Shown in pieces: positions 34,826 to 60,166 of a stretch of DNA of 64,000 nt (position 1 is the first letter of the stretch; each line of letters begins with the position of its first letter). Source of the DNA: Chamaesiphon sp. 341R_metabat_111 (GTDB taxonomy: Bacteria; Cyanobacteriota; Cyanobacteriia; Cyanobacteriales; Chamaesiphonaceae); NCBI GenBank assembly GCA_025351825.1, contig JANXVE010000052.1, forward strand, positions 1 to 64,000. Direction: 5' to 3'. The notes beneath the pieces were generated by a model. The model worked only from the letters and a program-made list of their open reading frames with translations. It was not told the DNA's origin and made no database searches. The translations under genes were made by a program, and so were the position numbers.

Positions 34826-34829
34826 AATT

Positions 34830-34935
34830 AGTTGATAGTTGATAGTTGATAGTTGATAGTTGATAGCGATAATTGTATTCTCGCACACTCCCCATCTCGC
34901 ACACTCCCCATCTCCCCATCTCCCCATCTCCCCAT
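34830..34935. repeat. Tandem heptamer and octamer repeats abutting a start codon
   Basis: Five perfect copies of AGTTGAT (34830-34864) start 4 bp upstream of the methyltransferase ATG. Further upstream are four perfect copies of CTCCCCAT (34904-34935) with degenerate flanking copies to about 34970. These are the short tandemly repeated type known in cyanobacteria. Confidence 0.85.
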
Positions 34936-35032
34936 CTCCCAGTCTCCCCGTCCCCCAGTCCCCATCCCAAGCAGATCGAGCCTAACAACCAATTCCTGGG
35001 CATACTAGGTTGAGATAGTCTTGAGAGTACAG

Positions 35033-37685: not shown

Positions 37686-38204
37686 TTAAGCTTTGATTTG
37701 GGTTACTTTAGCGAGGTTAGCTCGATCGATTCTGACATCCAAGGCACTATCTTCGCCGCCACTGAGCGAACGGATCACTTCTCCCAGTACCAATGGTTCG
37801 GAGACTCCAGGGGCAGGGTGAATCACCGTCCGAGCGCGCACCTTGAGCTGTTTGTCAGCCGAACCAGATCGACCATAGGAATACAAGTCTGCTGCGGCTT
37901 GACGGAGTGTGGCATCCAATCCCGCTTCGGTGACAGGTGCTGCTACGACAATTGTAGCTCGATCGCTACCATTGTCATAAATCAAGGAGTAATGAAGTGC
38001 CCCAGGGACATTGGAATGGACGATTGGTACCAAGCTCAAGGCAAACAAACCAGCCGTCAGCACGCCCATGAAGCCAGTTGCACCAACTAATCTATATTTG
38101 AATGACCATTTTAGGGCTAAGGCTAAGATCGTCACGACGGTAAAGGCAATTGTCGCAATTCCCGACCATTGGAAGTACTGAGCAAATTCAGAGGTGGATA
38201 TCAT
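37686..38204 (-). CDS. ycf51: Ycf51-family membrane protein
   Basis: 172 residues from ATG 38204. Two N-terminal membrane segments (about 12-30 [19 protein letters not shown] and 38-62 [24 protein letters not shown]) precede a soluble domain ([39 protein letters not shown]), matching the Ycf51/DUF2518 pattern of cyanobacteria and some plastids. Function unknown. An upstream in-frame start (38306) would translate tandem repeats into NSQLPTP units and is rejected as an artefact. Confidence 0.88.
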
Positions 38205-38349
38205 GGGAGTTGGGAGTTGGGAGTTGGGAGTTGGGAGTTGGGAGTTGGGAGTTGGGAGCGGGGAGCGGGGAGCGAGGAGCGGGGAGCGGGAAAAATAACG
38301 TACCAAATATCTGCTTCTTTTCTCCCAACTCCCAACTCTTCACTCCCAA
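38205..38349. repeat. Tandem GGGAGTT / GGGAGCG heptamers directly upstream of ycf51
   Basis: Seven perfect copies of GGGAGTT (38205-38253) begin at the base next to the ycf51 ATG. About five copies of GGGAGCG follow (38254-38288). Inverted copies (AACTCCC-type) occur at about 38322-38350, so the block can fold back. No Shine-Dalgarno is visible. Confidence 0.88.
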
Positions 38350-42428: not shown

Positions 42429-42480
42429 TAAAATTGGAGAGTAGGGGCAATTTATGAATTGCCCCTACTCTAAAATTTTA
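42429..42480. terminator. Bidirectional palindromic terminator, copy 3
   Basis: The palindrome GAGTAGGGGCAATTTAT... with GAATTGCCCCTACTC (42439-42471) and flanking TAAAATT/AATTTTA sits between convergent mnmA and the giant Calx-beta gene, even overlapping its final codon. Core identical to the palindrome at 6314-6378 except one centre base. Confidence 0.75.
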
Positions 42481-45400
42481 TGCTGATTTAATCTTCAAAT
42501 TAACAACCAAATCATTAAAATCTCGATCGCCACTACCATACATATCTTCAACACCAAAGGTATTGTTGCCAATTAAGCGGAAGTGATCGGCTTTATCGGA
42601 ATTAGCACCAATGTAATTGAAGTAGGCATGAATATTATTGGCACCACCACCATTAGTAGGGTTTTTAGCAACAAAGTCATTTAATGTGCCTTGAGCCACA
42701 ACTACTGGCGCGTAAATTTTACCACCAGCAATATTTAGATTTGTTTTGACATCACTTTTACCTGCTTGCAATGAATTAGTTAAAGCATTTTTAATTGCTT
42801 CAATTGCATAATTAGTATCCCCTGGTTTGACGAAAGTACCATCTGTGAGTTGAATAGTACCTAGTGCATCTTCAACCACATAGAAACCAACGTTATTGTT
42901 ATAAGCCGCGCTGCTCTTGGTGACGATATCTGCTTTGAGAGTTTGTCCACCATAGCTAGTGAGATTGAGATTTACGGCTGTTGATGTTGGCGTAATTTTG
43001 ACAACATCTAAGACTAGATCTTGGGGATTTATAGTAGTGGTAAAGTTGGCTTGAACGATCGTATCGTTGAAATCTTTGTCACCACCATTACGGGTATCTT
43101 CAAATCCAAAGGTGTTGTTGTCCAATAAACGAATATGTTCGATTTTATCAGCGTTAGCGGCACTGTAAGCAGTGTAGACATTACTGAAATCGAGATTGAC
43201 ACTATCAGGTTTATTGTTGGTAATGATTAGCGGTGCATAGATTGCACCACCTTGAACATTGCTCCGACTGGTGACGGTTTGACCATTAATACCCAGCAGA
43301 TCGATGTTCGTCAAGCGGTTTTGGACAGCAGCGGCAAGATAGCCAGCATCACCAGGTTTAAGAGTTATCCCAATTTGAGAAACGATCGTACCTTGAGCAT
43401 CTTCGATTTTGTAGAAACTGACGTGGTTGTCATAACCAGCAGAGCGTTGAACGCTGAATGTTGCTTGGACGGCTTGATTATTACTGACCGATCGTAAGTC
43501 AATAATTTTTGCGATACTTTGGAGTCCAGATCCTAACGGTTGTTTATTCCGATCTAATCGATCGGGACTGGTATTATCGATCGGAGTAATGGGATTGAGA
43601 TTGACAACTACTGGTGGCTTTTCAGTTACTGATGGTTTTTCAATTACCTCAGGAGTGAGCGGAATTGGATTACCTCCGGTAGGCACGCCAACGACAATTA
43701 CTGGGGCTAAATCATCATTCTCGATCGTACCAGTACCAGTTGCTTTACCGATCGATCCACCCACTGCATTTTTTAGATTCAGGAAGAAGGTTTCCGTATT
43801 TTCAACATCAGCATCACCGTTAATTTTGATATTAATAGTCTTGCGAGTTTCACCTGGAGTAAATGTGGTGGTATTGGGAATCAGATCCGATGGTGCAAAA
43901 CTGAGGGTACCCGTTGTCGCCGTATAGTCACAATCGGCACCTGCCGTACCATCAGCAGTAGCATAATCAACTGTTACTATGTCATCACTAGCATTGCTCA
44001 GAGAGACAGTAAAAGTGAGATCCTTGGTGCTATCAGCTTCGGTAATAGTCACATCATCGATGCTAATTACTGGTGCTCGATCATCATCGATGATATTCAC
44101 CTTGGCAGTACCAATCGTTGCGTCGAAGTCATAGCGGCTACCTTTGCGAAGCGTGACGACACAACTACGCGCCGCATTGTAAACGGCATTATCGGCAACT
44201 GGTACGCCGAGGGTAACTGTATTGCTACCTGCTGCGAAAGTGACAGAGCCAGTCCGATTTCCATAGCCTTGGCGGGTGCTAGCATTGCCAGAGAGATCGA
44301 AATCGATATTCAGGGCACTATTTAAGTCGCCACCAGTACGGGCGAAGGTAAATAAGCCTTCACCAATGCCTTCAGTTGAAGTAGCATTTGTCGCTACGAC
44401 GGTGATGACGGGATTGGTAAACGCAATTGCTGGCGATGGCTCACTTTCGGGTGGAGTGACAACTACAGGAGGAGTGATAACCACTGGCGACGGAATCACG
44501 ACAGGAGGCGTAACCACAGCAACAGGAGATGTAACGACTACTGGAGGAGTGATAACCACTGGCGACGGAATCACGACAGGAGGCGTAACCACATCAATAG
44601 GAGGTGTAACGACTACTGGAGGAATGACAACTACCGGAGGAGTGATAATCACTGGCGGAGTGATGACATCGACAGGAGGTATAACCACCACTGGCGGAGT
44701 GATGACTATCGGAGGAGTGATTACCACTGGCGGCGTAACCACATCAATAGGAGGTGTAATCACTACTGGGGGAGTGACAACCACTGGCGAAGTAATCACC
44801 ACAGGAGGCGTAATCACATCAACAGGAGGCGTAATCACTACTGGCGGAGTGATAACTACTGGAGAGATCGTATCATCATTGATAATACTACCTGTGCCAG
44901 TTGCTCTACCCAATGTGCCGCCGACTGCGTTAGTCAGATTGAGCGTAAAGGTTTCATTCCTTTCAACCTCATTATCACCATTGATTTTGACGGTAATGGT
45001 TTTGCTGGTTTCACCTGGAGTAAATTCGGTAGTTCCGGCGAGGATGTCGGATGGTGTGAAATTGAGCGTGCCAGTTGTGGCAAGATAGTCACTTCCCGCC
45101 TTCGCGGTACCGTCAGCAGAAGCATAATCTACTTTCACCACGTCATCGCTGGCGTTGCTCAGAGCGACGGTGAAGGTGAGATCTTTTGTGCCGCTATCAC
45201 CTTCGGTGATGCTGACATCATTGATGCTAATTACTGGTGCCTTGTCATCATCGACGATGGTTACTGTTGCTTCACCACTGCCAATGACTCCGCTACCAGT
45301 GCCACCGGAGCCGCCTGAACCGCCAGCACCGCCTCCGCCTCCGCCTCCGGAACCACCCGCGCTGCCACCACCGCCTGAACCTCCACCGGAGCCACCACCA

Positions 45401-48400
45401 GAACCACCAGAACCTCCGCTACCAATACCGCCGCCGATACTGTAGCCAATGCCACCACGAAGCCGAACGACACAACTGCGATAAGCACTGTAGACAGTGT
45501 TATTGGCGACGGGAACGGGGAGAGTTGCGGTATTGCTACCTGCGGCAAAAGTGACTGAACCGCTGCGTGTGCCGTAGCCTTGGCGGGTACTCGCATTACC
45601 CAGCAGATCGAAATCGACGGTTAAGGTTCGATCGAGATTACCACCCGATCGGTAGAATGTGAACAATCCTTCACCTGTGCCTTCGGTAGAAATTGGATTG
45701 GTGGCATTGACGGTAACTGAGGGGAGGGTATCATCATTGACGATCGTACCCGTACCTGTAGCTGTGGTAATGCCGCTGGTATTTTTGGCGTTGGCGAGAT
45801 TGACTGTAAAAGTTTTATCGGGTTCAAAGTCTTTGTCGCCATTCACCGCGACATTAATCGCCTGAGTGGTTTCCAATGGTTGGAAAGTAACTGTTCCAGA
45901 TTTCGCTGTGTAGTCAGCATCGAGGTTGGTGGTACCCAATACTGTTGCGGTGCCATCGGCGGTACTATAGTCAACTGTGACTGTTTCGACGGTGGGGTTG
46001 CTGAGAGTTACATTAAAGCCAAAGTTACTGGTGCCACTGTTACCTTCGGCTTGGCTGACATTACTAATCGCGACTGTCGGACGAAGATCGTTATCGGAAA
46101 TATTAACGGTAGCGATATTGGTAGTACCGACGGCATAAGTAGCCGGAAACTTAGCATAAGCAAGGGCATTACCGCCATCGGCAAGTACGGTAGCCACTTG
46201 ATAAGCATTGGATACAACAGTTAAAATCGCCGTCTCTGGAGTGTCACCTTCAAAGATGTTGTCATCCTTGATATTGAGATCGACAACCATCGTACTGCTA
46301 CCAGCAGCAAAAGCAGCTACTCCGCTGACTGTATAGTCTGTGCCACTAGTTGCCGTACCCGATAGAGTGTATTTAATATTATCGAGGCCATTGGTAGTAG
46401 GGCCACTGCGGGTGAGGGTAAATTGACCTGGTTTAGTCGGTGTTTCACTCGCATCGGCAATTGTGGCGGCAACGGTTATTTCTGGTAAATCATCGTTATT
46501 GATGGTACCTGTTCCAGTCCCTGTGGTGGAACTAATCGAGCCATTCGTAGCACCGCTTAATACCGTGCTAAAGGTTTCGTTATCCTCAAATACAGTGTCA
46601 CCGTTGACGGCAACGTTTACAATTTGGCTAGTTTGCCCTGGTGCGAAGGTGACAAGCTGGTTGGTTAGGGCTTGGTAATCGCTATTTGCTGTAGTCGCTG
46701 TGCCATCAGCAGTTGAGAGATTAACAGTAACTGTCTCCGTCGAAGCATTACTGAGACTAACTGTAAATCCAGCGTTACTAGTACCAGTATTGCCTTCAGC
46801 TATAGCCGTACTGTTAATCGATATAATTGGACGACTATCGTTATCGGCGATATTAATCGTACCTGTAGTGCTGTTGCCGAGGAGATAATTCGCGCTAGGC
46901 GTGAGGGTGAGGATCGCTGTTTCGGGAGTTGCACCTTCAAAGATGGTGTCGTCGATAACTGTCAGATTGACTGAAGTTGTCGCGGCACCAGCGGCAAATT
47001 TGGCAATCCCAGTCACAGGCGCATAGTCAGCACTAGTTGCCGTACCGCTGAGAGTATAGGCAACATCGATCGAGTTAGTCAGGTCGCCAGTTCGAGTTAG
47101 AGTATAGACACCATTGGCCCCACCTTCGGCGGCATTTGGTTCGGCGACGCTGACATTGATGCCATTATCATCATTGACAATCGTTCCAGTCGCAGTAGCG
47201 CGAGTAATACTAGTCGCATTTTTAGCGTTGGTGAGATTGACAGCAAATGTCTCATCATTTTCGACATTGAGATCGCCAATGATGGGGACATTCAATACTT
47301 GGCTGGTTGTGCCTGGGGCGAAGGTGACAGTCCCAGTGGCGGCGGTGTAGTCATTACCCGCTACAGTAGCCGTACCATCGGTGGTGGTGTAATCGACGGT
47401 GACTGTTTCGGTGGAGGGGTTGCTGAGAGTAAGTGTAAATGCAGCGTTGCTGGTGCCAGTGTTACCTTCGGTTTTGGAGCTGTCGGCGATACTAATCGTG
47501 GGGCGACTATCATTATCTGCGATCGAAATCGTGCCAGTATTATTAGCAGGATCGACGCGATAAGTTGCTGCTCGATTGAAATAAGTAGTCGCAAAATAGC
47601 TGCTGTCGAAATAACTATCATCAATCAGTGTGAGAATAGCTGTTTCAGGAGTTGCACCTTCAAACAGATTATCGTCGGTAGGATTGAGTGCAACTTTGGC
47701 GGTGGTGCTGCCAGCGGCAAATGTCACCGAGCCAGGAATTGAATAGTCAGAGCCATTTGTGGCTGTGCCGCTGAGATTATACAAGAATGTTTTCTCAGTA
47801 GCTTCACCACCAACACGAGTGAAGGTAAATTCACCAGGATTTGCAGGTTGTCCGGTTAATGTTTCGGCTGCATTTGCATCAGTAACGGCGACACTAATTG
47901 TCGGTAAATCGTCATTATTAATGGTACCTATGCCAGTACCAGCAGTCGAGCTAATCGTGCCATTCGTAGCACCACTCAATATTGCGCTAAAAGTTTCATT
48001 AGCCTCGAAGGTGAGATCGCCATTGACATCAACATTCACAACTTGGCTAGTTTGTCCAGGTGTGAAAGTGACTGCCCGATTAGTTAAGGCTTGATAATCA
48101 CTATTTGCGGTAGTTGCGGTACCATCAGCCGTCGAGAGATTGACTGTAACTGCTTCTGTTGAAGCGTTGCTCAGACTAACTGTAAATGCTGCTTTACTAG
48201 TTCCAGTATCGCCTTCAGCAATTGTGGCATTACTAACTGAAATAACTGGACGACTATCGTTATCGATAATATCGATCGTCCCTGAATTGGCACTACTGAC
48301 GACATAATTGGTACTTGGCGTGATGGTGAGCGTCACTTTTTCAGGAGTCGCACCTTCAAAGATTGTGTCATCCAGGACGCGCAGATCGATCGATGCCGTA

Positions 48401-51400
48401 GCTTGATTGGCGGCAAATACTGCCGAGCCAGATAGAGCTTGATAATCACTACCCGCAGTAGCCGTACCACTGAGAGTATAGTTGACCGTGACAGCTTGGG
48501 TGATTTCACCCGATCGAGTCAACAGGAATTGACCGTTATTATTATTTGCTTCGCCAGCATCCCCATCACTGATACTGACTGAAATCCCACTCTCATCATT
48601 GAGAATTGTACCTGTCCCAGATGCTTTACCGATCGTGCCCCCAACTGCGTTAGTTAGATTGACACTATAGGTTTCATCGTCTTCACCGATTTGGTCGCCG
48701 ATAACTGGCACATTGACGGTTTTGGTGGTTTGGAGTGGGGTAAAAGTGACAGTTCCAGTCGTTGCGGTATAGTCGCTGTTGCTGTTAGTCGCTGTACCAT
48801 TAGCGGTGGCATAGTCTACGGTGACTGTTTCAACAGTAGGATTACTCAGGGTAATCGTAAACGGGGTATTGCTGCTGCCAGTATTACCTTCAGCGCGCGG
48901 GGTGCTATCGGCGATGTTAATTGTGGGACGACTATCGTTATCGGCGATCGAGATCGTGCCAGTATTATTAGCAGGATCGATCCGATAAGTATCAGGTCGA
49001 TCGTACTGATGGGTAGAATAATAGCTGCCATCATAGTAACCATCGCCAATTAACGTCAGAATAGCTGTTTCTGGAGTCGCACCTTCAAAGATATTATCAT
49101 CAGTAGGATTGAGTACGATCTTTGCCGTGGTACTTCCAGCCGCGAAAGTTACCGAGCCAGGACTTGTATAATCGGAGCCATTTGTAGCGGTACCGCTGAG
49201 ATTATATAAGAATGTTTTCTCAGTAGCTTCACCACCAACCCGAGTGAAAGTAAATTCACCAGGATTTGCAGGTTGTCCGGTTGATGTTTCGGCGGCATCG
49301 GCATCAGTAACGGTGACACTAATCGTCGGTAAATCATCGTTATTGATGGTACCTGTGCCAGTCCCAGCAGTCGAGCTAATCGTGCCATTCGTAGCACCAC
49401 TGAGCACCGCACTAAAGGTTTCATTCGCCTCGAAGGTGAGATCGCCATTGACGACGACATTGACAACTTGGCTGGTTTGCCCAGGTGTGAATGTAACCGT
49501 TCGATTGGTTAGTGGTTGATAGTCATTATTGGCAACGGTAGCGGTACCATCAGCCGTCGAGAGATTGACTGTTACTGTTTCTACGGAGGGATTGCTCAGA
49601 CTGACTGTAAATCCAGCATTAGTAGTACCCGTATTGCCTTCAGCGATCGAAATATTACCAACCGAAATCGTCGGACGACTATCGTTGTCGGCAATATTGA
49701 TGGTACCTGTATTAATGCCGATCGCATAATTGCCACTGGGCGTAAGGGTAAGAATCGCTGTTTCGGGAGTCGCCCCTTCAAAAACAGTGTCGTCGATAAC
49801 GGTCAAGTTGACTGAAGTTGTAGCAGCACCAGCAGCAAAGGTGGCGGTACCTGTGACGGGCTGATAGTCACTTCCCGCTGTGGTACCGCTGAGGGTGTAT
49901 GCGACTGCTAGTGCGTTAGTTAGATTGCCAGTACGGGTGAGAGTATAGACACCATTGGCACCACCTTCGGCGGCATTGGGGTTGGCGACGCTGACGTTTA
50001 TGCCATTATCATCATTGAGAATCGTTCCAGTGGCGGTGCTGTCAGTAATGCCCGTAGCATTTTTGGCGTTACTGAGATTGACGGTAAACGTTTCATCACC
50101 TTCCACTGTAATGTCGCCATTGATGGGGACATTGATAACTTGGCTGATGATACCTGGGGCAAAGGTGACGGTACCAGTGGCAGCGGTATAGTCCTTCCCT
50201 GCAATTGTGGCGGTGCCATCGGCAGTAGTGTAATCTACGGTGACTGCTTCGATGGATGGGTTGCTGAGGGTAACGGTAAATGCGGCGTTACTAGTGCCAC
50301 TATTACCTTCGACTTTGCTGACATCGGCAATACTAATGGTAGGGCGACTATCGTTGTCGGTAATACTGACGGTAGCAGTGTTATTAGTACCGATCGAGTA
50401 AGTAGCCGGAAATCTATCAATAATATCTCCATAACCAGTGGTTCTCGTGCTGGTGTAAGCATTATCCGCGATCGTCAAGATCGCCGTCTCTGGAGTGACA
50501 CCTTCAAAGATCTTATCGTCAACGATGTCAAGATCGACTACCATCGTACTGCTGCCCGCAGCAAAGCCGCCTAAGCTTGTAGCTGAGTAATCTGTACCAT
50601 TAGTTGCTGTGCCCGATAGTGTGTATTTAATGTTAGTGAGTTCTAGATTGTTGGGACCGCTGCGAGTCAGGGTAAATTGACCGCGTTTAGGTGTTTCAAT
50701 TCCCAACTTTTCTGCTGCATCTGCCTTATTGGCGACGACGGTAATTGTCGGTAGGTCATCGTTTTGGATCGTACCAGTACCAGTAGCACCAAGAAATTGA
50801 GCGATCGAACCTTTCGTCGGATTACTCAGCACGACCCCAAAGGTTTCATTATTCTCATATTCAGTATCGCCGTTGACCAGGACGTTAACAACTTGACTGG
50901 TTTGCCCAGGTGCAAAGGTGATAAGTTGATTTTTTAAGGCTTGGTAATCATTGTTGGCGATAGTTGCCGTACCATCTATGGTAGAGATCTGAACTGTGAC
51001 CGCTTCTCCTGTAGCATGGTCGAGCTTGACTGTAAATGCGGCATTTTTGGTGCCTGTGTTGCCTTCAGTTATTGCGGGAGCATCGCCGATTGAAATGGTG
51101 GGATAGGTATCGTCGTTGAGAATCTTCCCAGTGGCGGTGCTGTCAGTAATACCCGTTGCATTTTTGGCATTGCTGAGATCGACAGTAAATGTCTCATCAC
51201 CTTCGACGAGGAGATCGCCATTGACAGGGACATTGATAATTTGACCAATTTGATTCCCTGAATAAATGATATTACTGTACCCTGGTCCAAAAGTTAAAGT
51301 CCCTGTTGTTGTGGTGTAGTCATTACCTGCCGCTGTTGCCGTACCATCAGTAGTCTTGTAATCGACGGTAACTATTTCTGCGGAGGGGTTGCTCAGAGCA

Positions 51401-52464
51401 ACGAAGAACTGAGAATAACTAATGCCACTATTACCCTCTATGACACTAGACGCGTCGGTAATACTAATTGTGGGACGACTATCATTGTCTGCGATATTTA
51501 CAGTGGCAATCTTATTATTCGGATCGACACTATAAGTCGGCGGACGATTATTACCTAAAATCCCAAACAGACTATAAACTGTGTCATCAATCAGGGTGAG
51601 AATCGCAGTCTCTGGAGTCACACCTTCAAAAATATTGTCGTCAGTGGGAGTAAGCAGAGCTGTAACTGTACTGCTACCTGCCGCAAAAGTCACCGAGCCA
51701 GGAATCGTATAATCAGAGCCATTTGTTGCTGTACCACTGAGAGTGTAAAGGACGGTTTTGGCGATACTCTCACCACCGATGCGAGTGAAGGTAAATTCAC
51801 CAGTGTTCGCCGCTTGTCCACTCAGTGTTTCTGCGGCACTAGCATCGCTGGCGACGACACTAATTATAGGTAGTAGAGCTAATATTCCCGCATAGCTAGC
51901 CATCACCGCAGTTGTAAACGCTAATGGTACCGATGCGGCTAAATCCCAATCACCACCCAACTCAGGATTACCCGTCTTAGTCGCCTTAGCAATCACCCGC
52001 GCCTGAGTCAATTCACCCAGCCCCGCTACCAGAGCTGCGCCTCTACCACTCTGAGCCACTTCACAACCATAGATCAAAATCTCCGCATCTGCCGCCAGAG
52101 ATCTCGACCACGATCGCAATCTATCGGTATACTCGGCTAAGTTATCTAGATCTAAATACCCATTTCCCAACTGCACCGAGCCTGACGTACCGTGAGAGAC
52201 GATATGAATCGCCGTCAAGCCTCGATGACGGGCTAGAACCTGGGTAATTCGATCGATCCCATTTGAGTCGAGATCTACTAAAACAGTCGCGATTCCAGGC
52301 AGTACACCCGCAGTCAGGACAGCGTAATCGGTGATATTTCGATCGATAAAGACGATCTGTTTTGGTGCGACTAATCGAAGTGCAGTGGAGCGATTCAGGA
52401 TGGATGTAGTTAAGTTCATGTTGGTATGGATGAATGCGGAGTTAGTAAAGAGGTTTGTGGTCAA
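42478..52464 (-). CDS. Giant secreted protein: DUF4347, about 21 Calx-beta domains, two DUF4114 modules
   Basis: 3328 residues. An N-terminal DUF4347 domain (about 36-190) has HIVSHGTSG (His91) and ILIYGCEVAQSG (Cys134), resembling a caspase-like His/Cys pair. About 21 Calx-beta domains follow (about 196-2920), each ending in ADNDS or NDD motifs expected to bind Ca2+. They are interrupted by a Gly/Ser-rich hinge (about 2345-2394) and a Val-Thr-Pro-Pro-rich linker (about 2533-2673). Two DUF4114 modules end the protein (GFEDTRNGGDKDFND and GVEDMYGSGDRDFNDLVV). No Sec or Tat signal is seen, so type I-like secretion is plausible. The 9.99 kb frame is unbroken. Confidence 0.9.
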   Translation of the reverse strand: MTTNLFTNSAFIHTNMNLTTSILNRSTALRLVAPKQIVFIDRNITDYAVLTAGVLPGIATVLVDLDSNGIDRITQVLARHRGLTAIHIVSHGTSGSVQLGNGYLDLDNLAEYTDRLRSWSRSLAADAEILIYGCEVAQSGRGAALVAGLGELTQARVIAKATKTGNPELGGDWDLAASVPLAFTTAVMASYAGILALLPIISVVASDASAAETLSGQAANTGEFTFTRIGGESIAKTVLYTLSGTATNGSDYTIPGSVTFAAGSSTVTALLTPTDDNIFEGVTPETAILTLIDDTVYSLFGILGNNRPPTYSVDPNNKIATVNIADNDSRPTISITDASSVIEGNSGISYSQFFVALSNPSAEIVTVDYKTTDGTATAAGNDYTTTTGTLTFGPGYSNIIYSGNQIGQIINVPVNGDLLVEGDETFTVDLSNAKNATGITDSTATGKILNDDTYPTISIGDAPAITEGNTGTKNAAFTVKLDHATGEAVTVQISTIDGTATIANNDYQALKNQLITFAPGQTSQVVNVLVNGDTEYENNETFGVVLSNPTKGSIAQFLGATGTGTIQNDDLPTITVVANKADAAEKLGIETPKRGQFTLTRSGPNNLELTNIKYTLSGTATNGTDYSATSLGGFAAGSSTMVVDLDIVDDKIFEGVTPETAILTIADNAYTSTRTTGYGDIIDRFPATYSIGTNNTATVSITDNDSRPTISIADVSKVEGNSGTSNAAFTVTLSNPSIEAVTVDYTTADGTATIAGKDYTAATGTVTFAPGIISQVINVPINGDITVEGDETFTVNLSNAKNATGITDSTATGTILNDDNGINVSVANPNAAEGGANGVYTLTRTGNLTNALAVAYTLSGTTAGSDYQPVTGTATFAAGAATTSVNLTVIDDTVFEGATPETAILTLTPSGNYAIGINTGTINIADNDSRPTISVGNISIAEGNTGTTNAGFTVSLSNPSVETVTVNLSTADGTATVANNDYQPLTNRTVTFTPGQTSQVVNVVVNGDLTFEANETFSAVLSGATNGTISSTAGTGTGTINNDDLPTISVTVTDADAAETSTGQPANPGEFTFTRVGGEATEKTFLYNLSGTATNGSDYTSPGSVTFAAGSTTAKIVLNPTDDNIFEGATPETAILTLIGDGYYDGSYYSTHQYDRPDTYRIDPANNTGTISIADNDSRPTINIADSTPRAEGNTGSSNTPFTITLSNPTVETVTVDYATANGTATNSNSDYTATTGTVTFTPLQTTKTVNVPVIGDQIGEDDETYSVNLTNAVGGTIGKASGTGTILNDESGISVSISDGDAGEANNNNGQFLLTRSGEITQAVTVNYTLSGTATAGSDYQALSGSAVFAANQATASIDLRVLDDTIFEGATPEKVTLTITPSTNYVVSSANSGTIDIIDNDSRPVISVSNATIAEGDTGTSKAAFTVSLSNASTEAVTVNLSTADGTATTANSDYQALTNRAVTFTPGQTSQVVNVDVNGDLTFEANETFSAILSGATNGTISSTAGTGIGTINNDDLPTISVAVTDANAAETLTGQPANPGEFTFTRVGGEATEKTFLYNLSGTATNGSDYSIPGSVTFAAGSTTAKVALNPTDDNLFEGATPETAILTLIDDSYFDSSYFATTYFNRAATYRVDPANNTGTISIADNDSRPTISIADSSKTEGNTGTSNAAFTLTLSNPSTETVTVDYTTTDGTATVAGNDYTAATGTVTFAPGTTSQVLNVPIIGDLNVENDETFAVNLTNAKNATSITRATATGTIVNDDNGINVSVAEPNAAEGGANGVYTLTRTGDLTNSIDVAYTLSGTATSADYAPVTGIAKFAAGAATTSVNLTVIDDTIFEGATPETAILTLTPSANYLLGNSTTGTINIADNDSRPIISINSTAIAEGNTGTSNAGFTVSLSNASTETVTVNLSTADGTATTANSDYQALTNQLVTFAPGQTSQIVNVAVNGDTVFEDNETFSTVLSGATNGSISSTTGTGTGTINNDDLPEITVAATIADASETPTKPGQFTLTRSGPTTNGLDNIKYTLSGTATSGTDYTVSGVAAFAAGSSTMVVDLNIKDDNIFEGDTPETAILTVVSNAYQVATVLADGGNALAYAKFPATYAVGTTNIATVNISDNDLRPTVAISNVSQAEGNSGTSNFGFNVTLSNPTVETVTVDYSTADGTATVLGTTNLDADYTAKSGTVTFQPLETTQAINVAVNGDKDFEPDKTFTVNLANAKNTSGITTATGTGTIVNDDTLPSVTVNATNPISTEGTGEGLFTFYRSGGNLDRTLTVDFDLLGNASTRQGYGTRSGSVTFAAGSNTATLPVPVANNTVYSAYRSCVVRLRGGIGYSIGGGIGSGGSGGSGGGSGGGSGGGGSAGGSGGGGGGGAGGSGGSGGTGSGVIGSGEATVTIVDDDKAPVISINDVSITEGDSGTKDLTFTVALSNASDDVVKVDYASADGTAKAGSDYLATTGTLNFTPSDILAGTTEFTPGETSKTITVKINGDNEVERNETFTLNLTNAVGGTLGRATGTGSIINDDTISPVVITPPVVITPPVDVITPPVVITSPVVVTPPVVITPPIDVVTPPVVITPPIVITPPVVVIPPVDVITPPVIITPPVVVIPPVVVTPPIDVVTPPVVIPSPVVITPPVVVTSPVAVVTPPVVIPSPVVITPPVVVTPPESEPSPAIAFTNPVITVVATNATSTEGIGEGLFTFARTGGDLNSALNIDFDLSGNASTRQGYGNRTGSVTFAAGSNTVTLGVPVADNAVYNAARSCVVTLRKGSRYDFDATIGTAKVNIIDDDRAPVISIDDVTITEADSTKDLTFTVSLSNASDDIVTVDYATADGTAGADCDYTATTGTLSFAPSDLIPNTTTFTPGETRKTINIKINGDADVENTETFFLNLKNAVGGSIGKATGTGTIENDDLAPVIVVGVPTGGNPIPLTPEVIEKPSVTEKPPVVVNLNPITPIDNTSPDRLDRNKQPLGSGLQSIAKIIDLRSVSNNQAVQATFSVQRSAGYDNHVSFYKIEDAQGTIVSQIGITLKPGDAGYLAAAVQNRLTNIDLLGINGQTVTSRSNVQGGAIYAPLIITNNKPDSVNLDFSNVYTAYSAANADKIEHIRLLDNNTFGFEDTRNGGDKDFNDTIVQANFTTTINPQDLVLDVVKITPTSTAVNLNLTSYGGQTLKADIVTKSSAAYNNNVGFYVVEDALGTIQLTDGTFVKPGDTNYAIEAIKNALTNSLQAGKSDVKTNLNIAGGKIYAPVVVAQGTLNDFVAKNPTNGGGANNIHAYFNYIGANSDKADHFRLIGNNTFGVEDMYGSGDRDFNDLVVNLKIKSA
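44448..44868 (-). repeat. In-frame repeat encoding a Val/Thr/Pro-Pro linker
   Basis: About 420 bp of degenerate repeats of GGAGGAGTGATAACCACTGG type (plus strand) code for repeated VVITPPV/VVVTPP units inside the giant gene, between Calx-beta domains 19 and 20. A similar Pro/Thr/Val stretch lies in the 1510-residue protein at about 55380-55605. Confidence 0.85.
45283..45432 (-). repeat. In-frame Gly/Ser-rich hinge
   Basis: About 150 bp of CCACCGGAGCCGCC-type repeats encode a Gly/Ser run of about 45 residues inserted within Calx-beta domain 18, between its serine-rich strand and its terminal TIVDDD strand. Its composition is unlike the rest of the gene. Confidence 0.8.
46488..50754 (-). repeat. 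Higher-order repeat: three tandem blocks of four Calx-beta domains
   Basis: Equivalent block starts (DDLPxIxV) fall at 50754, 49332, 47907 and 46488: spacings of 1422, 1425 and 1419 bp (474, 475 and 473 codons). Each block holds four domain subtypes in the same order. The two central blocks (starting 49332 and 47907) are the most alike. Confidence 0.85.
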
Positions 52465-52651: not shown

Positions 52652-54205
52652 CTAGACAACAGCAGGAGCTTTGACGTTCATGCTGACAACTAGATCGTTG
52701 AAATCTCTGTCGCCACCACCATACATATCTTCAACACCAAAAGTATTGCTACCGATGAGGCGGAAGTGATCCACCTTGTCGGAGTTGGCACCGATATAGT
52801 TGAAGTAAGCGTGGACATCATTTTTACCACCACCATTACTAGCGTTCTTGTTGAGGAAATCATCGAAGCTACCTTGGGAGATCACTACTGGAGCGTAAAT
52901 CCGACCACCAGCAATATTTTGATCCGCTTTACTATCAGTTTTACCTACTTGTAACAAAGCATTTTTGACTGCTTCTGCTGCATAGTTATCATCACCTGGT
53001 TTGACAGATTTGCCATTATCAAGTTTGATAGTACCGATCGCATCTTCGACTGCATAAAAGCCCACATTATTGGTGTAAGCAGCGCTACTTTTTGTGACGA
53101 TATCTGCTTTGAGCGTCTGTCCGGCAAAGGCAGTCAGATCGATCGTGCGTCCTTCTGGAGCACGCTGGGAGCCACTGCCGATCGCAGTTTCAACTACCGC
53201 GCCACCCAATTTAAGGACATCTAGCACCAATTCACTATTATTAATCGAGACATTGTAGCCACTACCATCAGCATTATTGGTGACTTGGATGGGGCTATTA
53301 CCATCTTTATCGGGAAGCGAGAACAGGATATTGGCAGGTGTTTTACCATTATCAATCTGTTGTTGGAGATCGCTAATCGAGCCATCTTGAATTTGAAAGA
53401 ATTGATAGTTTTTACTTGGATCGACAGCAAATTCCTGCTTGTTAGTATTGAAAAAATCACCAGCTAAAGTGCTGAAGATTGATTTAGCACTGCCTAAGGC
53501 AGCTTTGAGATATTCAGTACTACCGGGTACAAGAGTGCCGATTTTGCCTGTAGTGTCGTCAACTGCAAACATGCCAATTTCATTGACTTTGCTGCTAGGT
53601 TTTTGAGACAAAGCTTTGACACCAAAACCCTTAGTGGTGAGATCAGTTTTGAACAGGTTATTATCGATCGATACACCAGGAATGATGCCGCTAGGAGTGG
53701 TTGGAGCCACTACTTTCGATAGGAATGCAGCCGCCTGACTACCAAAGCCGCTGGGGATAAAGCCAGCAGGGAAGTATGAACTTAAGCCAGCTAATGTGCT
53801 CAGGCTATTTGCACCAGTTAAACCAGCCAATGCACCCAAATTTCCGGTACCAGCGGTTCCAGCACCACTCAAGCCAGCTAAGATCGCTGGGTTGTTAGCA
53901 AATTGTTTAGCAAGCTCGGTATATTGTGCCAACAAATCGCCACTTAGCTTACCACTTGCAAATTGAGCTGCAAGATCGGTGTATTGCTTCACCAAATCGC
54001 TGCTAAAGTTACCAGCAGAAAATTGTCCCGCCAGACCACTGTATTTTTTATACAGATCGAGAGCAGTTGCACTATCGGCAGCCGTTGCACCATTTGTCAA
54101 AACTTTTTCGGCAAGGTTGAAGAGATCGCTGCCAATACCATTACCAATTAGTGCTTTGGTTTGGTTGATTATTCCTAGTGCTGTATTTACGTCGGGAGTA
54201 GCCAT
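52652..54205 (-). CDS. DUF4114 protein, 517 residues
   Basis: The N-terminal about 170 residues form an Ala/Leu/Gly-rich helical region with three degenerate repeats (KYSGLAGQFSAGNFSSDL, QYTDLAAQFASGKLSGDL, QYTELAKQFANN). Two DUF4114-like modules follow: a first, degenerate one (VNEIGMFAVDDTTGKIGTL, YQFFQIQDGS) and a C-terminal canonical one (NNVGFYAVEDAIGTIKL, KVDHFRLIGSNTFGVEDMYG, DRDFNDLVVSMNVK). No signal peptide. The C-terminus is very similar to both neighbours, suggesting a shared sorting or assembly domain. Probably a surface or extracellular partner. Confidence 0.8.
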   Translation of the reverse strand: MATPDVNTALGIINQTKALIGNGIGSDLFNLAEKVLTNGATAADSATALDLYKKYSGLAGQFSAGNFSSDLVKQYTDLAAQFASGKLSGDLLAQYTELAKQFANNPAILAGLSGAGTAGTGNLGALAGLTGANSLSTLAGLSSYFPAGFIPSGFGSQAAAFLSKVVAPTTPSGIIPGVSIDNNLFKTDLTTKGFGVKALSQKPSSKVNEIGMFAVDDTTGKIGTLVPGSTEYLKAALGSAKSIFSTLAGDFFNTNKQEFAVDPSKNYQFFQIQDGSISDLQQQIDNGKTPANILFSLPDKDGNSPIQVTNNADGSGYNVSINNSELVLDVLKLGGAVVETAIGSGSQRAPEGRTIDLTAFAGQTLKADIVTKSSAAYTNNVGFYAVEDAIGTIKLDNGKSVKPGDDNYAAEAVKNALLQVGKTDSKADQNIAGGRIYAPVVISQGSFDDFLNKNASNGGGKNDVHAYFNYIGANSDKVDHFRLIGSNTFGVEDMYGGGDRDFNDLVVSMNVKAPAVV

Positions 54206-54303
54206 GATTTTTTCTATTTTGAGGTATATGTAATTTTTAGATGAACAAGAGTGATTGTGCTTATCTACAAAGCAGATATTTATGAATAGCTGCTTAATTA
54301 TTT

Positions 54304-57300
54304 TTATATTTTGACGTTCATGCTGACAACGAGATCGTTGAAATCTCGATCGCCACCACCATACATATCTTCAACGCCAAACTTATTATTCCCAATTAAG
54401 CGAAAATGATCGACATTATCAGAATTTGCACCAATATAATTAAAATAGGCATTAGGATTATTTGCACCACCAACATTAGTGGGGTTCTTTGCTGCAAAAT
54501 CAGCAAATGTGCCTTGAGTCACCACCACCGGAGCATAGATTTTTCCGCCTACGATACTTTGGTCTAGTTTGCTGTCAGTTTTACCTGCTTGCAATGAATT
54601 TGTTAACGCACTTTTGATTGCTTCGATCGCATAATTAGCATCACCTGGTTTGACAAAGCTGCCATTAGTAAGTTTGATGGTGCCGATCGAGTCTTCAACT
54701 GCATAGAAGCCGATATTATTGGTATAAGCCGCGCTGCTATTGGTGATGATATCTGCTTTTAGGGTTTGTCCAGCGTAGTCACTCAGATCGATCGTCCGTC
54801 CTTGTGGAGCTGTTTGGGACTTACTGCCGATCGGAGTATTGACAGTTGCACCCGCTAGTTTGACCACATTTAATACTAATTCATCTGCGTTTACAGAGAC
54901 TTTATAGCCATCACTATTACTATTGTTAGTAACCTTAATCGAACTTTTGCCGTTAGCATCGGGGGTCGAGAATAATAAATTAGTGGGCAATTTACCACCA
55001 GCAATCTGTTGTTTTGCAGATGCGATCGAACCATCTTGAATTTCAAAGAATTGATAGATCTTATTGGGATCGATCGAAAACTCTTGATTGACTTTGTTGA
55101 GGAAATCACCAGCCAAGCTTGTAAAGATTGGTTTGGCAATATCTAGAGCAGCTTTGATATACTCTGGAGTTCCAGGTGCGATCGAGCCAATTTTTCCAGT
55201 GAGATCGTCTACAGCAAATATGCCAATTTCATTGACTTTATTAGTTGGCTTCTGAGTTACAGCACTGACCCCAAAGCCCTTGATTGTGGCATCAGTTGTG
55301 AAGAGGTTTTTTGCTACAGTTACGCCAGGAATTAAGCTGCTAGAGCTAGTTGGTGTGACTACTGGGCTAGTGTTAACTGTATTAACAGGTGGTGTGACGA
55401 CTGGCGTGGTAACTACGGGAGGAGTTGTAACTACGGGAGAAGTTATGACTACGGGAGAAGTTGTGACTACGGGAGGAGTTATGACTACGGGAGGATTTGT
55501 AACTACGGGAGGATTTGTAACTACAACAGGTGGTGTGACGACGGGAGGAGTTGTAACTACGGGAGGTGGTGTGACGACTGGTGTGGTTACAACTGGGGTT
55601 GCAACATTCTGATTCAACAGGATTGACACGTCGTTGCCGTCGGATTCGGCGATCGCCAAGTCAGAGAGACCATCACCATTGAAGTCGCCGACTGTTGCCG
55701 AAGTGGGAGTATGGTACCCAGGAAAATTGGTGGCAGTACCAAAACCGCCTTTTCCATCTCCCAGTAGAACTGATATGCTGTAGGCAGAGTTAGTGATAGC
55801 CAAGTCAGCGATGCCGTCGTTGTTGAAGTCGCCTATTGCGATAGATTTGGGACTACCCCCTACTGCAAAATTAGTCGCAGTACCAAAACCGCCTTTTCCA
55901 TTTCCCAGCAGGACTGATACGTCGATGCTACCGTTCGCAGTAACTAAATCGAGGATGCCGTCGCCGTTGAAGTCGCCCACTTTTATCGAAGTGGGATAAC
56001 CGTCTACATCAAAACTAGTAGGAGTGCCAAAGCTGCCCTTGCCATTTCCTAGCAAGATTGATACGCTGCTGTTGCTGCTGTAGGAGTTAGTAGTCGCCAA
56101 GTCAGAGATACCATCACCGTTGAAATCACTCACCAGCACTGAATTGGGATGATTTAATACCGCGAATTTAGCAGGAGTGCCAAAATTGCCTTTTCCATCC
56201 CCCAGCAGAACTGATAAGTTGTTATTGGCGGGGTCAGAGGTAACGAGATCGAGGATACGATCGCCGTTAAAGTCTCCTACTGTTACGAAACTAGGAAAAT
56301 ACCCCACATCAAATTGAGTAGGAGTGCCAAAACTGCCTTTCCCATCTCCTAGTAGAACTGATACGTTGCTGCTGAACAGGTTGGCGGTAACGAGATCGAG
56401 GATACCATCACCGTTGAAGTCCCTGGCTGTGATGGAATTGGGAGCATTACCCGCCGCAAAATTGGTAGCAGTACTAAAACTACCTTTTCCGTTTCCGAGC
56501 AGGACTGATACGGTGTTGCTACCGTTCGCAGTAACTAGATCGAGGATGCCGTCGCCATTAAAGTCTCCTGATGTGACGGAATTGGGGCCAATCCCTACTG
56601 CAAATTTGGCAGGAGAGCTAAAGTTTGCGGTTGTGGGGTTATTGGGTGGGATAACAACAGCCGCTGTGACATTCAAGCCAAAGTTACTAGCTACTTTTAG
56701 ACCAGCTTTATCGGTGGCTGTGACATCAATGCTGAGATTGCCAGCATCACCAGCGGCGGGAGTACCAGCGAATGTTCTGGTCGTCGCATCGAAGGTGAGC
56801 CAAGTTGGGAGGTTATTACCATTGGCTAGTTTGGCACTGTAGCTCAGAATATCTCCAACGTCAGGGTCGGTAAAGGTATTGGCTGCGAAGATAAATTTTA
56901 GAGCACTGCCAGAGATGATACTCTGCGTCGATATTGGATTGGAAACTACTGGTACATTATTGACTGGGGTGACAATCGCCGCCGTAACATTTAGACCAAA
57001 GCTGTTGGTGACGGTTAGCCCAGCTTTGTCTGTAGCTGTGACCACAATCCCGAAGTTGCCAACATCACCAGCGGCGGGAGTACCAGCAAAGGTGCGGGTT
57101 ACGGCATTAAAGGTGAGCCAAGTTGGTAAATTACTGTTATTGTCTAATTTGGCACTGTAGCTGAGAACGTCTCCACTATCTGGGTCGGTGAAGGTATTTG
57201 CAGCGAGGCTGAAGTTTAGAGGGCTGCCTGAGACGATGCTTTGGGCAGAGATCGGATTGGCAACTACTGGGGGGTTATTAACTGGGGTATTAGGTAAACT

Positions 57301-58836
57301 ATCTTTGCTAGCGATGTATAAAGCGAATTTACCGCTGCTGGGATCGTTAATGGTTGCGGGGGTAAATGTGTCATAAATAACATTGCTACCAGAAACAGCA
57401 GTGTAGACTAGGTTTTCAATCACAGATGGTCCAGATGTCGCTAAATTGACTCTGGTATTACCATCATCGATATAAAGGTTGGCTTTAATCCCTACCTCGC
57501 TTCCGGTAATCAAGGTAGCCTGACCCGTAAACCATGTGTTGTTCTTGCCATCGGTATTAGAACTGCTAATACCGACACCAGTACCAAAATTATTTTCGAT
57601 CGGATTCTCAGTTTTACCGCTACTAATACTGTACGATCGCTCTGTCACTAGCGAACTATTCAATGCTTTAGCTTGATAAAAAACTCGATCGCCATTAATA
57701 CCAAAATTGGCAGCAGAAACACTTTCAGCGATTTTGGTACTTTGCCCATTATTGTAGAGATACAAGTCTTCTTTTGACAGATACACTACTTTGCTACCTG
57801 ATACGACGGCTGTGACGAGAGCGGGTTGAGTATAGGCATCTTGACCAGCAGGTAATGTAACTAGATCGACTATTTTCGTACCGTCATAAAACCGTAGAGT
57901 TTGGGCAGATACACCTGAAAGTGAAGTACCTTGTGTATTTTCGTTCCAGACGATCGACTTATCACTATCAATGACGAGGTTTGTGACATTTTTGGCTCCA
58001 GGCACTAGCGTATTACTTTTATCGCTAATTCGGTAGATATTAATCCCACCATCAGTTGCCCAAGCAATCCGATCTCCGGCGAAATCTGCACCAGTAGTCT
58101 TGCCTAAATCTGTAGTGGTGGTGCCATCATACAAAAAGGTGTGATAAACCGGAACTTGATAACCACCCAATGGTTCATCAACAAACTGACCCCAAACTAC
58201 TTTACCGCTATCGATACGAGTAGAGGCAGGCAAAAAAGCTGGTGAATTAGATGATTTATAGACGTTAGAGGTCTCCGTACTCAGAGTTTTAGTACTGGTA
58301 CCATCAAATAACCGGAGAGTTGAAGTAGCCCCAGTACCTTCTTGCCAGACAACTAGATTGCCAGAGATTTTGCTAAACCCAATAATGACGTTGCTACTGA
58401 GTTTTTTGATAGTGTATCCAGCCTCAGCCGCAGTTTTGTTAATAGTTGTCGCTGGAATTGTCGCAACTAGATCGTTATCAGTGATGAGGACGGTAGCAGT
58501 TTGACTGGTACCCAGAGTGTAAGCGGCATCTGCGACGATCGATACTTTGACAGTTTGGGTATTTTCAGGGATCGTATCATCGATCGGAATCACTGGCAGA
58601 TCGAGAGAATCCTGTCCCGCTGAAAAAGTAACCGTAGTAGGCAGTACTTGATAATCTTCGCCAGGAGTGGCATAGCTACTACTGCTAGCGTCGAGCAGAC
58701 TATATTGGGAAATGGTATTTAGTTTTACCGTTAAAGGCTGAGTGAGATCGCCAGTACGGGCGATCGTAAATGCGCCCTGAGTATTGGGTTCGCCAGCATT
58801 TTGTTTGTTGGTAATATTGACTGTTGAGCTTGCCAT
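54304..58836 (-). CDS. Mosaic surface protein: Calx-beta, propeller, Ig-like, FG-GAP and DUF4114
   Basis: 1510 residues. One N-terminal Calx-beta domain (about 1-125, ending VLITDNDL). A propeller-like region follows (about 145-515). Two near-identical cadherin/He_PIG-type Ig domains (about 520-735) share NTFTDPDxGDxLSYSAKL, LPTWLTF and TRTFAGTPAAGD. About seven or eight FG-GAP/VCBS repeats follow (about 740-1075), each with a DFNGDGILDL Ca2+-binding loop and VLLGNGKGSFGT. A Pro/Thr/Val linker precedes two C-terminal DUF4114 modules ending DRDFNDLVVSMNVKI. No Sec signal. Likely a Ca2+-stabilised adhesin or matrix protein, upstream in the same leftward cluster as the two other DUF4114 genes. 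Confidence 0.88.
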   Translation of the reverse strand: MASSTVNITNKQNAGEPNTQGAFTIARTGDLTQPLTVKLNTISQYSLLDASSSSYATPGEDYQVLPTTVTFSAGQDSLDLPVIPIDDTIPENTQTVKVSIVADAAYTLGTSQTATVLITDNDLVATIPATTINKTAAEAGYTIKKLSSNVIIGFSKISGNLVVWQEGTGATSTLRLFDGTSTKTLSTETSNVYKSSNSPAFLPASTRIDSGKVVWGQFVDEPLGGYQVPVYHTFLYDGTTTTDLGKTTGADFAGDRIAWATDGGINIYRISDKSNTLVPGAKNVTNLVIDSDKSIVWNENTQGTSLSGVSAQTLRFYDGTKIVDLVTLPAGQDAYTQPALVTAVVSGSKVVYLSKEDLYLYNNGQSTKIAESVSAANFGINGDRVFYQAKALNSSLVTERSYSISSGKTENPIENNFGTGVGISSSNTDGKNNTWFTGQATLITGSEVGIKANLYIDDGNTRVNLATSGPSVIENLVYTAVSGSNVIYDTFTPATINDPSSGKFALYIASKDSLPNTPVNNPPVVANPISAQSIVSGSPLNFSLAANTFTDPDSGDVLSYSAKLDNNSNLPTWLTFNAVTRTFAGTPAAGDVGNFGIVVTATDKAGLTVTNSFGLNVTAAIVTPVNNVPVVSNPISTQSIISGSALKFIFAANTFTDPDVGDILSYSAKLANGNNLPTWLTFDATTRTFAGTPAAGDAGNLSIDVTATDKAGLKVASNFGLNVTAAVVIPPNNPTTANFSSPAKFAVGIGPNSVTSGDFNGDGILDLVTANGSNTVSVLLGNGKGSFSTATNFAAGNAPNSITARDFNGDGILDLVTANLFSSNVSVLLGDGKGSFGTPTQFDVGYFPSFVTVGDFNGDRILDLVTSDPANNNLSVLLGDGKGNFGTPAKFAVLNHPNSVLVSDFNGDGISDLATTNSYSSNSSVSILLGNGKGSFGTPTSFDVDGYPTSIKVGDFNGDGILDLVTANGSIDVSVLLGNGKGGFGTATNFAVGGSPKSIAIGDFNNDGIADLAITNSAYSISVLLGDGKGGFGTATNFPGYHTPTSATVGDFNGDGLSDLAIAESDGNDVSILLNQNVATPVVTTPVVTPPPVVTTPPVVTPPVVVTNPPVVTNPPVVITPPVVTTSPVVITSPVVTTPPVVTTPVVTPPVNTVNTSPVVTPTSSSSLIPGVTVAKNLFTTDATIKGFGVSAVTQKPTNKVNEIGIFAVDDLTGKIGSIAPGTPEYIKAALDIAKPIFTSLAGDFLNKVNQEFSIDPNKIYQFFEIQDGSIASAKQQIAGGKLPTNLLFSTPDANGKSSIKVTNNSNSDGYKVSVNADELVLNVVKLAGATVNTPIGSKSQTAPQGRTIDLSDYAGQTLKADIITNSSAAYTNNIGFYAVEDSIGTIKLTNGSFVKPGDANYAIEAIKSALTNSLQAGKTDSKLDQSIVGGKIYAPVVVTQGTFADFAAKNPTNVGGANNPNAYFNYIGANSDNVDHFRLIGNNKFGVEDMYGGGDRDFNDLVVSMNVKI

Positions 58837-59187: not shown

Positions 59188-60078
59188 TTAAAACCGACAA
59201 ATAGACTCTGGTTTTATGGGACATTTTTTTTCGAGAATGGGGTTTTTGTAAAGATAAAGTTCAGTTAACTTATTCAATCCAGACAACGGATTAATATCGA
59301 CAATTTGATTGCTATTGAGATAGAGTTCAGTTAACTTACTCAATCCAGACAGTGGCTTAACATCGACGAGTTGGTTTTGATTGAGACCAAGACGAGTTAA
59401 ATTACTCAATCCAGCCAGTGGCTTAACATCGATGATTTGATTCCCATTGAGACCAAGATAAGTTAGTTTACTCAATCCAGCCAGTGGCTTGACATCAACG
59501 ATTTGATTCCCATTGAGATCGAGATAAGTTAATTTACTCAATCCAGCCAGTGGCTTGACATCAATGATTTTATTGCCCACGATCTCAATAGCAACTAAGT
59601 TGCTCAATCCAGCCAGTGGCTTGATATCGACGATTTGATTGCCACTGAGACCGAGAGCATTTAATTTATTCAATCCAGCCAGTGGCTTGACATCGATGAT
59701 TTGATTGCCATCGAGACCAACAGCAACTAAATTATTCAATTCAGTCAGTGGCTTGATATCGACGATTTTATTACTATTGAGAGCAAGAATAGTTAAATTA
59801 CTCAATCCAGTTAATGGCTTTAGATCGCTGATTCTATTCTTCCTGAGATCGAGTTTAGTTAGACTTTTGAGTTGAATATTAGCTTTTTGACAGTCTTCAG
59901 TACCAGCTTTTGTAAGCAATACATCGATCGTTTTTCTAGTTTCAGCAGGTACAGTATTTTTCTCCTGACACCACTCGGCGAAGCTTTTCACTTTCACCTG
60001 TGCGAGGGTAACTGCTGCTACGGGCAGAACTTGAAATAATAATGTTGATAGACTTAGAAGTGCAAAGAATTTTTTCAT
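59188..60078 (-). CDS. Secreted leucine-rich-repeat protein (22-residue internalin/SDS22-like repeats)
   Basis: 296 residues from the ATG at 60078, chosen because it begins MKKFFALLSLSTLLFQVLPVAA, a clear Sec signal; a longer frame starts at 60156. After a cap region (about 30-75, two Cys) there are nine LRRs of exactly 22 residues with consensus LxxLxLNxNQIxDVKPLxGL, then a C-terminal cap (KNPILEKKCP). The fold is a curved beta-sheet for protein binding. The repeats are highly similar, suggesting recent expansion. It sits 88 bp from the next leftward gene, so co-transcription is possible. Confidence 0.9.
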   Translation of the reverse strand: MKKFFALLSLSTLLFQVLPVAAVTLAQVKVKSFAEWCQEKNTVPAETRKTIDVLLTKAGTEDCQKANIQLKSLTKLDLRKNRISDLKPLTGLSNLTILALNSNKIVDIKPLTELNNLVAVGLDGNQIIDVKPLAGLNKLNALGLSGNQIVDIKPLAGLSNLVAIEIVGNKIIDVKPLAGLSKLTYLDLNGNQIVDVKPLAGLSKLTYLGLNGNQIIDVKPLAGLSNLTRLGLNQNQLVDVKPLSGLSKLTELYLNSNQIVDINPLSGLNKLTELYLYKNPILEKKCPIKPESICRF

Positions 60079-60166
60079 GATTTTAATGATGAGAATATAG
60101 TTGATATCGATGACCTTTTGTCTGCTTTCTCTTAAGTTCGAGCACATCATCAGCAAAAGATCTCAA

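Follow-up and report, generated by a model that had tools for sequence, protein, structure and literature searches.

A giant minus-strand gene in the window analyzed here (64,000 nucleotides) carries Calx-beta domains in an order of four that recurs at a near-constant period, which raises the question of whether this apparent unit is also the unit by which the gene evolved. The first-pass annotation had answered that the protein grew by duplication of four-domain cassettes. The four-domain order is real, but duplication of whole cassettes is contradicted by the per-domain trees for the sequences that survive. The explanation that we consider reasonably probable is that the array would form the stalk of a very large protein secreted to the cell surface, probably of a fibrillar-adhesin-like kind, built of alternating odd (types A, C, E) and even (types B, D, F) Calx-beta domains, with an old four-domain period whose copies have since been rewritten by patch exchange.

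Architecture of the giant protein

Pfam assigns an N-terminal DUF4347 domain, a long Calx-beta array, and a C-terminal DUF4114 domain to the giant protein, and nothing else. On the whole protein, Calx-beta (PF03160) scores 732 bits against a curated cut-off of 27; 16 stretches exceed this cut-off individually, with some odd-class domains matching weakly. There are 21 Calx-beta domains, arranged in the order A0-B0-D0, A1-B1-C1-D1, A2-B2-C2-D2, A3-B3-C3-D3, A4-B4, E1-F1, a Pro-rich linker, and E2-F2. Six type profiles, trained on these same domains, sort every domain into its own type by a wide margin. The features, in window coordinates, are:

42478..52464, minus strand: giant open reading frame (ORF), 3328 aa, listed from TTG, with an ATG at codon 16 as the likelier start
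51880..52356, minus strand: N-terminal DUF4347 domain, aa 37-195 (Pfam 1.9e-48; model pLDDT 94.9; PDB matches)
50752..51879, minus strand: partial unit A0-B0-D0, aa 196-571, without C (domain cutting and alignment, type profiles)
49330..50751, minus strand: unit 1, aa 572-1045 (A1 50350-50751, B1 50008-50349, C1 49681-50007, D1 49330-49680)
47905..49329, minus strand: unit 2, aa 1046-1520 (A2 48934-49329, B2 48592-48933, C2 48256-48591, D2 47905-48255)
46486..47904, minus strand: unit 3, aa 1521-1993 (A3 47509-47904, B3 47164-47508, C3 46837-47163, D3 46486-46836)
45727..46485, minus strand: partial unit A4-B4, B4 grouping with its counterpart in a second genome (G006)
44869..45726, minus strand: E1-F1 pair, with a Gly-rich insert in E1 that is present in G006 too
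44416..44868, minus strand: Pro-rich linker of PPVVITPP type, a 75-bp tandem repeat
43708..44415, minus strand: E2-F2, the second E-F pair (domain alignment, type profiles)
42493..42726, minus strand: C-terminal DUF4114, aa 3247-3324 (Pfam; the better of two DUF4114 stretches)

The span to which the superrepeat had been assigned, 46488-50754, encodes aa 571-1993 of the giant protein and holds exactly three A-B-C-D units, and the starts of the A domains, placed by domain alignment, confirm the recurrence at 474, 475, and 473 codons. Self-comparison of the protein gives peaks at lags 475, 947, 473, and 1423, and the upstream partial unit is indeed short of one domain type. The pattern continues downstream past the noted span, first with the partial A4-B4 and then with a different pair type, E-F, twice. 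Chance is ruled out by the largest shared DNA segments, which score 253 and 102, far above the maximum of 22 and 20 in 300 permutations. Because the longest exact repeat within the array is only 38 bp and the units are 65-73% identical in DNA, assembly collapse or error is unlikely. Single-domain duplication alone fails to yield the strict domain order.

The DUF4347 domain is confidently predicted to adopt a caspase-like fold with a HIVSHG ... YGC His/Cys pattern; the prediction shows the clan CD caspase-like fold with His and Cys at strand ends. Its best PDB matches, of modest TM-score, are the DUF4347 protein Tce1 (9qpe; E 2.6e-5), a putative cysteine protease (PMC13323088), and caspase-3 (E 6e-4). 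Across 41 sequences the GC pair does not vary; the invariance of the His motif is not independent, as this motif formed part of the search pattern. The domain may process or release the giant protein. Relatives of DUF4347 are spread over many phyla.

Two minus-strand neighbor ORFs upstream of the giant gene (52652-58836) likewise terminate in DUF4114, and one of them, of 1510 aa, contains FG-GAP repeats, He_PIG domains, one Calx-beta-like domain, and PPVV repeats resembling those of the giant gene (similar Pro-rich tandem repeats of PPVV type lie at 44416-44868 and 55409-55566, in two neighboring genes). Elsewhere in the window are a leucine-rich-repeat protein with 66-bp tandem repeats (59188-60156), the start of an NB-ARC and WD40 protein that runs off the window (61238-64000), and 7-8 bp tandem repeats (TAGTTGA, TGGGAGT, CTCCCCAT) in or beside predicted ORFs (34829-34966 and 38204-38290). 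There are 46 copies of the octamer TCGATCGA in the window (1-64000) against 1.4 expected, or ~719 per Mb, whereas the usual cyanobacterial octamer HIP1, GCGATCGC, is present only 8 times (~125 per Mb). The former density is near that reported for C. minutus PCC 6605 (750 per Mb), but the latter fits less well (448 per Mb in that strain; PMC4390886). The source is very likely cyanobacterial and probably belongs to Chamaesiphon or a near relative.

Trees of single domains and of domain pairs

Identity tables reveal nearest partners that differ by domain (A2-A3 84%, A1-A4 63%, B1-B3 81%, C1-C3 83%, D1-D2 85%). The per-domain trees, which had been named as the place where the cassette reading could fail, do not share one topology across the four domains, as the A and C trees conflict with AU rejections. 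In the codon-based A tree, units 2 and 3 group together, as do A1 and A4, and the groupings 1+2 and 1+3 are rejected (p ~5e-5), whereas the codon-based C tree joins units 1 and 3 and rejects 1+2 and 2+3 (p ~0.018); these and the following p values are nominal and weakened, the groupings having been chosen after the identity table had been viewed. The B and D trees, taken singly, reject no grouping individually.

Pairs of neighboring domains give trees with strong groupings. D-A dimers place D0A1 with D3A4 (100/99.9) and D1A2 with D2A3 (99/98), the alternatives being rejected with a loss of ~70 log-likelihood units, a result that is very strong despite the post-hoc choice of groupings. The B-C dimer tree joins B1C1 with B3C3 (99/98) and rejects the alternatives (p 0.011 and 0.018). 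Identities of neighbors are correlated for B-C (r=1.00, 3 pairs only) and moderately so for D-A (r=0.54, 6 pairs), with no such correlation for A-B (r=-0.03, 10 pairs) or C-D (r=-0.84, 3 pairs). Neighboring domains are congruent in the D-A and B-C phase only, not in the A-B-C-D phase. The three units are shown to be mosaics, the parts of which have different nearest relatives.

Could whole four-domain cassettes nevertheless have been duplicated in tandem, the tree conflicts being noise from saturation and unequal rates? The exact order, the near-constant period of 473-475 codons, the occurrence of a period-four pattern in G006 as well, and the permissive B and D trees would all agree with this proposal. 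We consider it unlikely, given that the A and C trees reject each other's grouping, that the D-A alternatives are so much worse, and that DNA identity falls from >80% to ~60% between adjoining stretches of one unit pair. Whole-cassette duplication is largely refuted for the present sequences and could survive only as an older founding step. Either cassettes were duplicated and then overwritten piecewise, or the array was built up from smaller blocks.

Proposed exchange blocks and the homolog in a second genome

The best-preserved shared DNA consists of two blocks of 737 and 614 bp, each present in two copies and out of phase with the proposed four-domain cassette:

48907..49644, minus strand: exchange block 1, copy a (most of D1, all of A2, start of B2), 737 bp ungapped, 83.6% identical to copy b at 475 codons
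47482..48219, minus strand: exchange block 1, copy b (most of D2, all of A3, start of B3), partner of copy a
49738..50352, minus strand: exchange block 2, copy a (B1 and most of C1), 614 bp ungapped, 79.2% identical to copy b at 947 codons
46897..47511, minus strand: exchange block 2, copy b (B3 and most of C3), partner of copy a

The block ends are approximate, since some of the ends found at fixed lag fall on indels of one residue; identity declines likewise when gapped windows are used. Identity at fourfold-degenerate sites is 0.62 and 0.53 inside the blocks versus 0.35-0.47 for other unit pairs.

Among nine genomes of the genus, DUF4347 is present in two, this genome (G000) and G006. The G006 homolog (L028) has 2774 aa from its ATG and, like the giant protein, combines DUF4347 with a Calx-beta array (16 domains), in which a long A-type domain stands at every fourth position (starts 1048, 1503, 1962; spacings 455 and 459 codons), and with an A-B-E-F tail that bears the Gly-rich insert. 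It differs from the giant protein in that RTX repeats flank its array on both sides, in lacking a DUF4114 match, and in having fewer units. Within its RTX region, a 301-bp stretch (aa 227-327) recurs from aa 464 onward with 99% identity, the product of a recent duplication or conversion. Across 388 genomes of the class, only the giant gene of this window gave a strong full-length match to the four-domain unit; G006 does not feature in that draw, but it matches the unit over its full length in a separate comparison.

In a tree of 37 domains from the two genomes, B4, E1, and F1 each join their counterparts from the other genome, the D domains of this genome cluster among themselves, and the internal domains of G006 are mostly species-specific. 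The C domains group by genome, so their shared C identity is only putative. With the long A-type domain at every fourth position and the A-B-E-F tail present in both, the four-domain order is probably older than the split from G006. The exchanges in the giant gene, on the other hand, probably postdate this split, as fourfold-site identity in the blocks exceeds that between orthologous parts of the two genomes (0.30-0.47). With the DUF4347-containing gene in two genomes of the genus only, the time order rests on one comparison.

G006 possesses a patch of its own, 452 bp long and 92.3% identical, which lies across an A/B junction, has a core fourfold identity of 0.93, and holds 119 identical bases in a row. 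Patches are approximately one to two domains long and their phase differs between the genomes; the dimer phase is no rule. These data also bear on the notion that position-specific functional selection keeps like domains alike without recombination, for which it may be said that the domain types are position-specific and old. We regard this as very improbable, because the raised similarity of the blocks extends to fourfold-degenerate sites and because of the uninterrupted run of identical bases in the G006 patch.

A further possibility is that the array grew directly by duplication and insertion of even-odd dimers (D-A, B-C), never by a four-domain duplication, the tetramer order being a by-product. 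Besides the clean dimer trees, this finds a parallel in another cyanobacterium of the class (G336; L078, a 4072-aa frame), in which an even-odd Calx-beta dimer is repeated with a 227-aa period at 97% identity. Such growth seems doubtful here, as it leaves unexplained both the strict alternation of D-A with B-C and the period four of G006 with its differently placed patch. The array of yet another genome, G307, shows lags of ~1 and ~8 domains, which together with the dimer period of G336 indicates that the size of the repeat unit varies between proteins.

We therefore return to patch exchange within an old period as the preferred explanation. We infer that the period of four domains predates the divergence from G006. 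Afterwards, copies lying out of register would have recombined homologously, by gene conversion or unequal crossing-over, which would have overwritten patches of ~0.45-0.74 kb, roughly one to two domains. Such overwriting would have kept the order while making the copies within a lineage more alike, and the patches surviving in this genome fit the even-odd dimers D-A and B-C.

Calcium positions, protein kind, and known systems

The deepest split in the 37-domain tree separates the odd domains (A, C, E) from the even domains (B, D, F) with 100/100 support, and the alternation of the two classes holds throughout the array except at B0-D0, where C is missing. Alignment with NCX1 CBD1 and inspection place an Asp at the DGTA position in 10 of the 11 even domains of the giant protein (B2 has Asn). 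The same position is Ser or Leu in all odd domains, with the other acidic positions largely kept. The DGTA Asp of NCX1 CBD1 is a Ca2+ ligand. Along the stalk, even domains richer in Ca2+ would thus alternate with odd domains poorer in it, and the stalk would stiffen upon Ca2+ binding.

A bolder proposal, which we judge quite unlikely, is that the even-odd dimer is the mechanical and recombinational unit of giant cyanobacterial stalks, made so by the alternation of Ca2+-richer and Ca2+-poorer domains, with a dimer phase kept by recombination and a mirror-like order of dimer subtypes (alpha-x-beta-y-beta-x-alpha) as a real product. We do not claim the mirror-like order, which is post-hoc and arises by chance in ~1 of 9 cases according to a count of the possible pairings.

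The long repetitive stalk of sandwich domains that is a feature of fibrillar adhesins is present, with 21 Calx-beta domains. For one unit, AlphaFold predicts an all-beta structure at moderate confidence (pLDDT 79, pTM 0.52), and the fold matches of this model are the NCX1 CBDs and other sandwich arrays. No adhesive domain or cell-surface anchor was found in the giant protein by Pfam, and as only Calx-beta, DUF4347, and DUF4114 are returned, we call it adhesin-like rather than an adhesin. No secretion genes were found among the neighbor genes tested; the RTX repeats of the G006 homolog suggest type I secretion. The best reading of these analyses is that the giant protein would be a stalk-like surface protein.

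This case illustrates that a repeat of several domains, however plain to the eye, may differ from the unit in which a giant bacterial protein evolved. Smaller exchanges can rewrite the copies and yet leave a regular period in place, so that unit counts and ages derived from whole-cassette comparison would mislead. The gene itself is of an ordinary kind; its mosaic history is a useful correction to the cassette reading, and the pair of genes from G000 and G006 offers a compact system for testing how giant surface proteins undergo concerted evolution.

The literature searches returned no study that describes cyanobacterial Calx-beta cassettes. Calx-beta arrays occur in large adhesins such as BapP and LapA, the latter representing a type of RTX adhesin (PMC12153261). 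BapP of Pseudoalteromonas tunicata is, like the giant protein, large and equipped with tandem Calx-beta-like domains; it has predicted Ca2+ sites and putative type 1 secretion (PMC12153261), but it possesses 7 Calx-beta-like repeats, other repeats, and a beta-propeller, whereas the giant protein has 21 Calx-beta domains between a DUF4347 start and a DUF4114 end. The CBD1-CBD2 pair of NCX1 (for example PDB 3us9) is likewise a tandem Calx-beta pair, the best PDB sequence match and among the best fold matches; it acts, however, as a cytosolic regulator of an exchanger and comprises two such domains only. Periscope proteins (PMC8201768, PMC9210967) are also bacterial surface proteins with repeated stalk domains, but their repeats are highly identical, and the giant gene, given its unit identity and longest exact repeat, lacks such near-identical tandem repeats. 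Multi-domain repeat expansion is already known: arrays of domain repeats gain several domains at a time, often at a central position (Bjorklund et al. 2006, PMC1553488). Compared with those expansions, the present-day blocks of the giant gene span approximately one to two domains, and they do not respect the borders of the four-domain unit that the order suggests.
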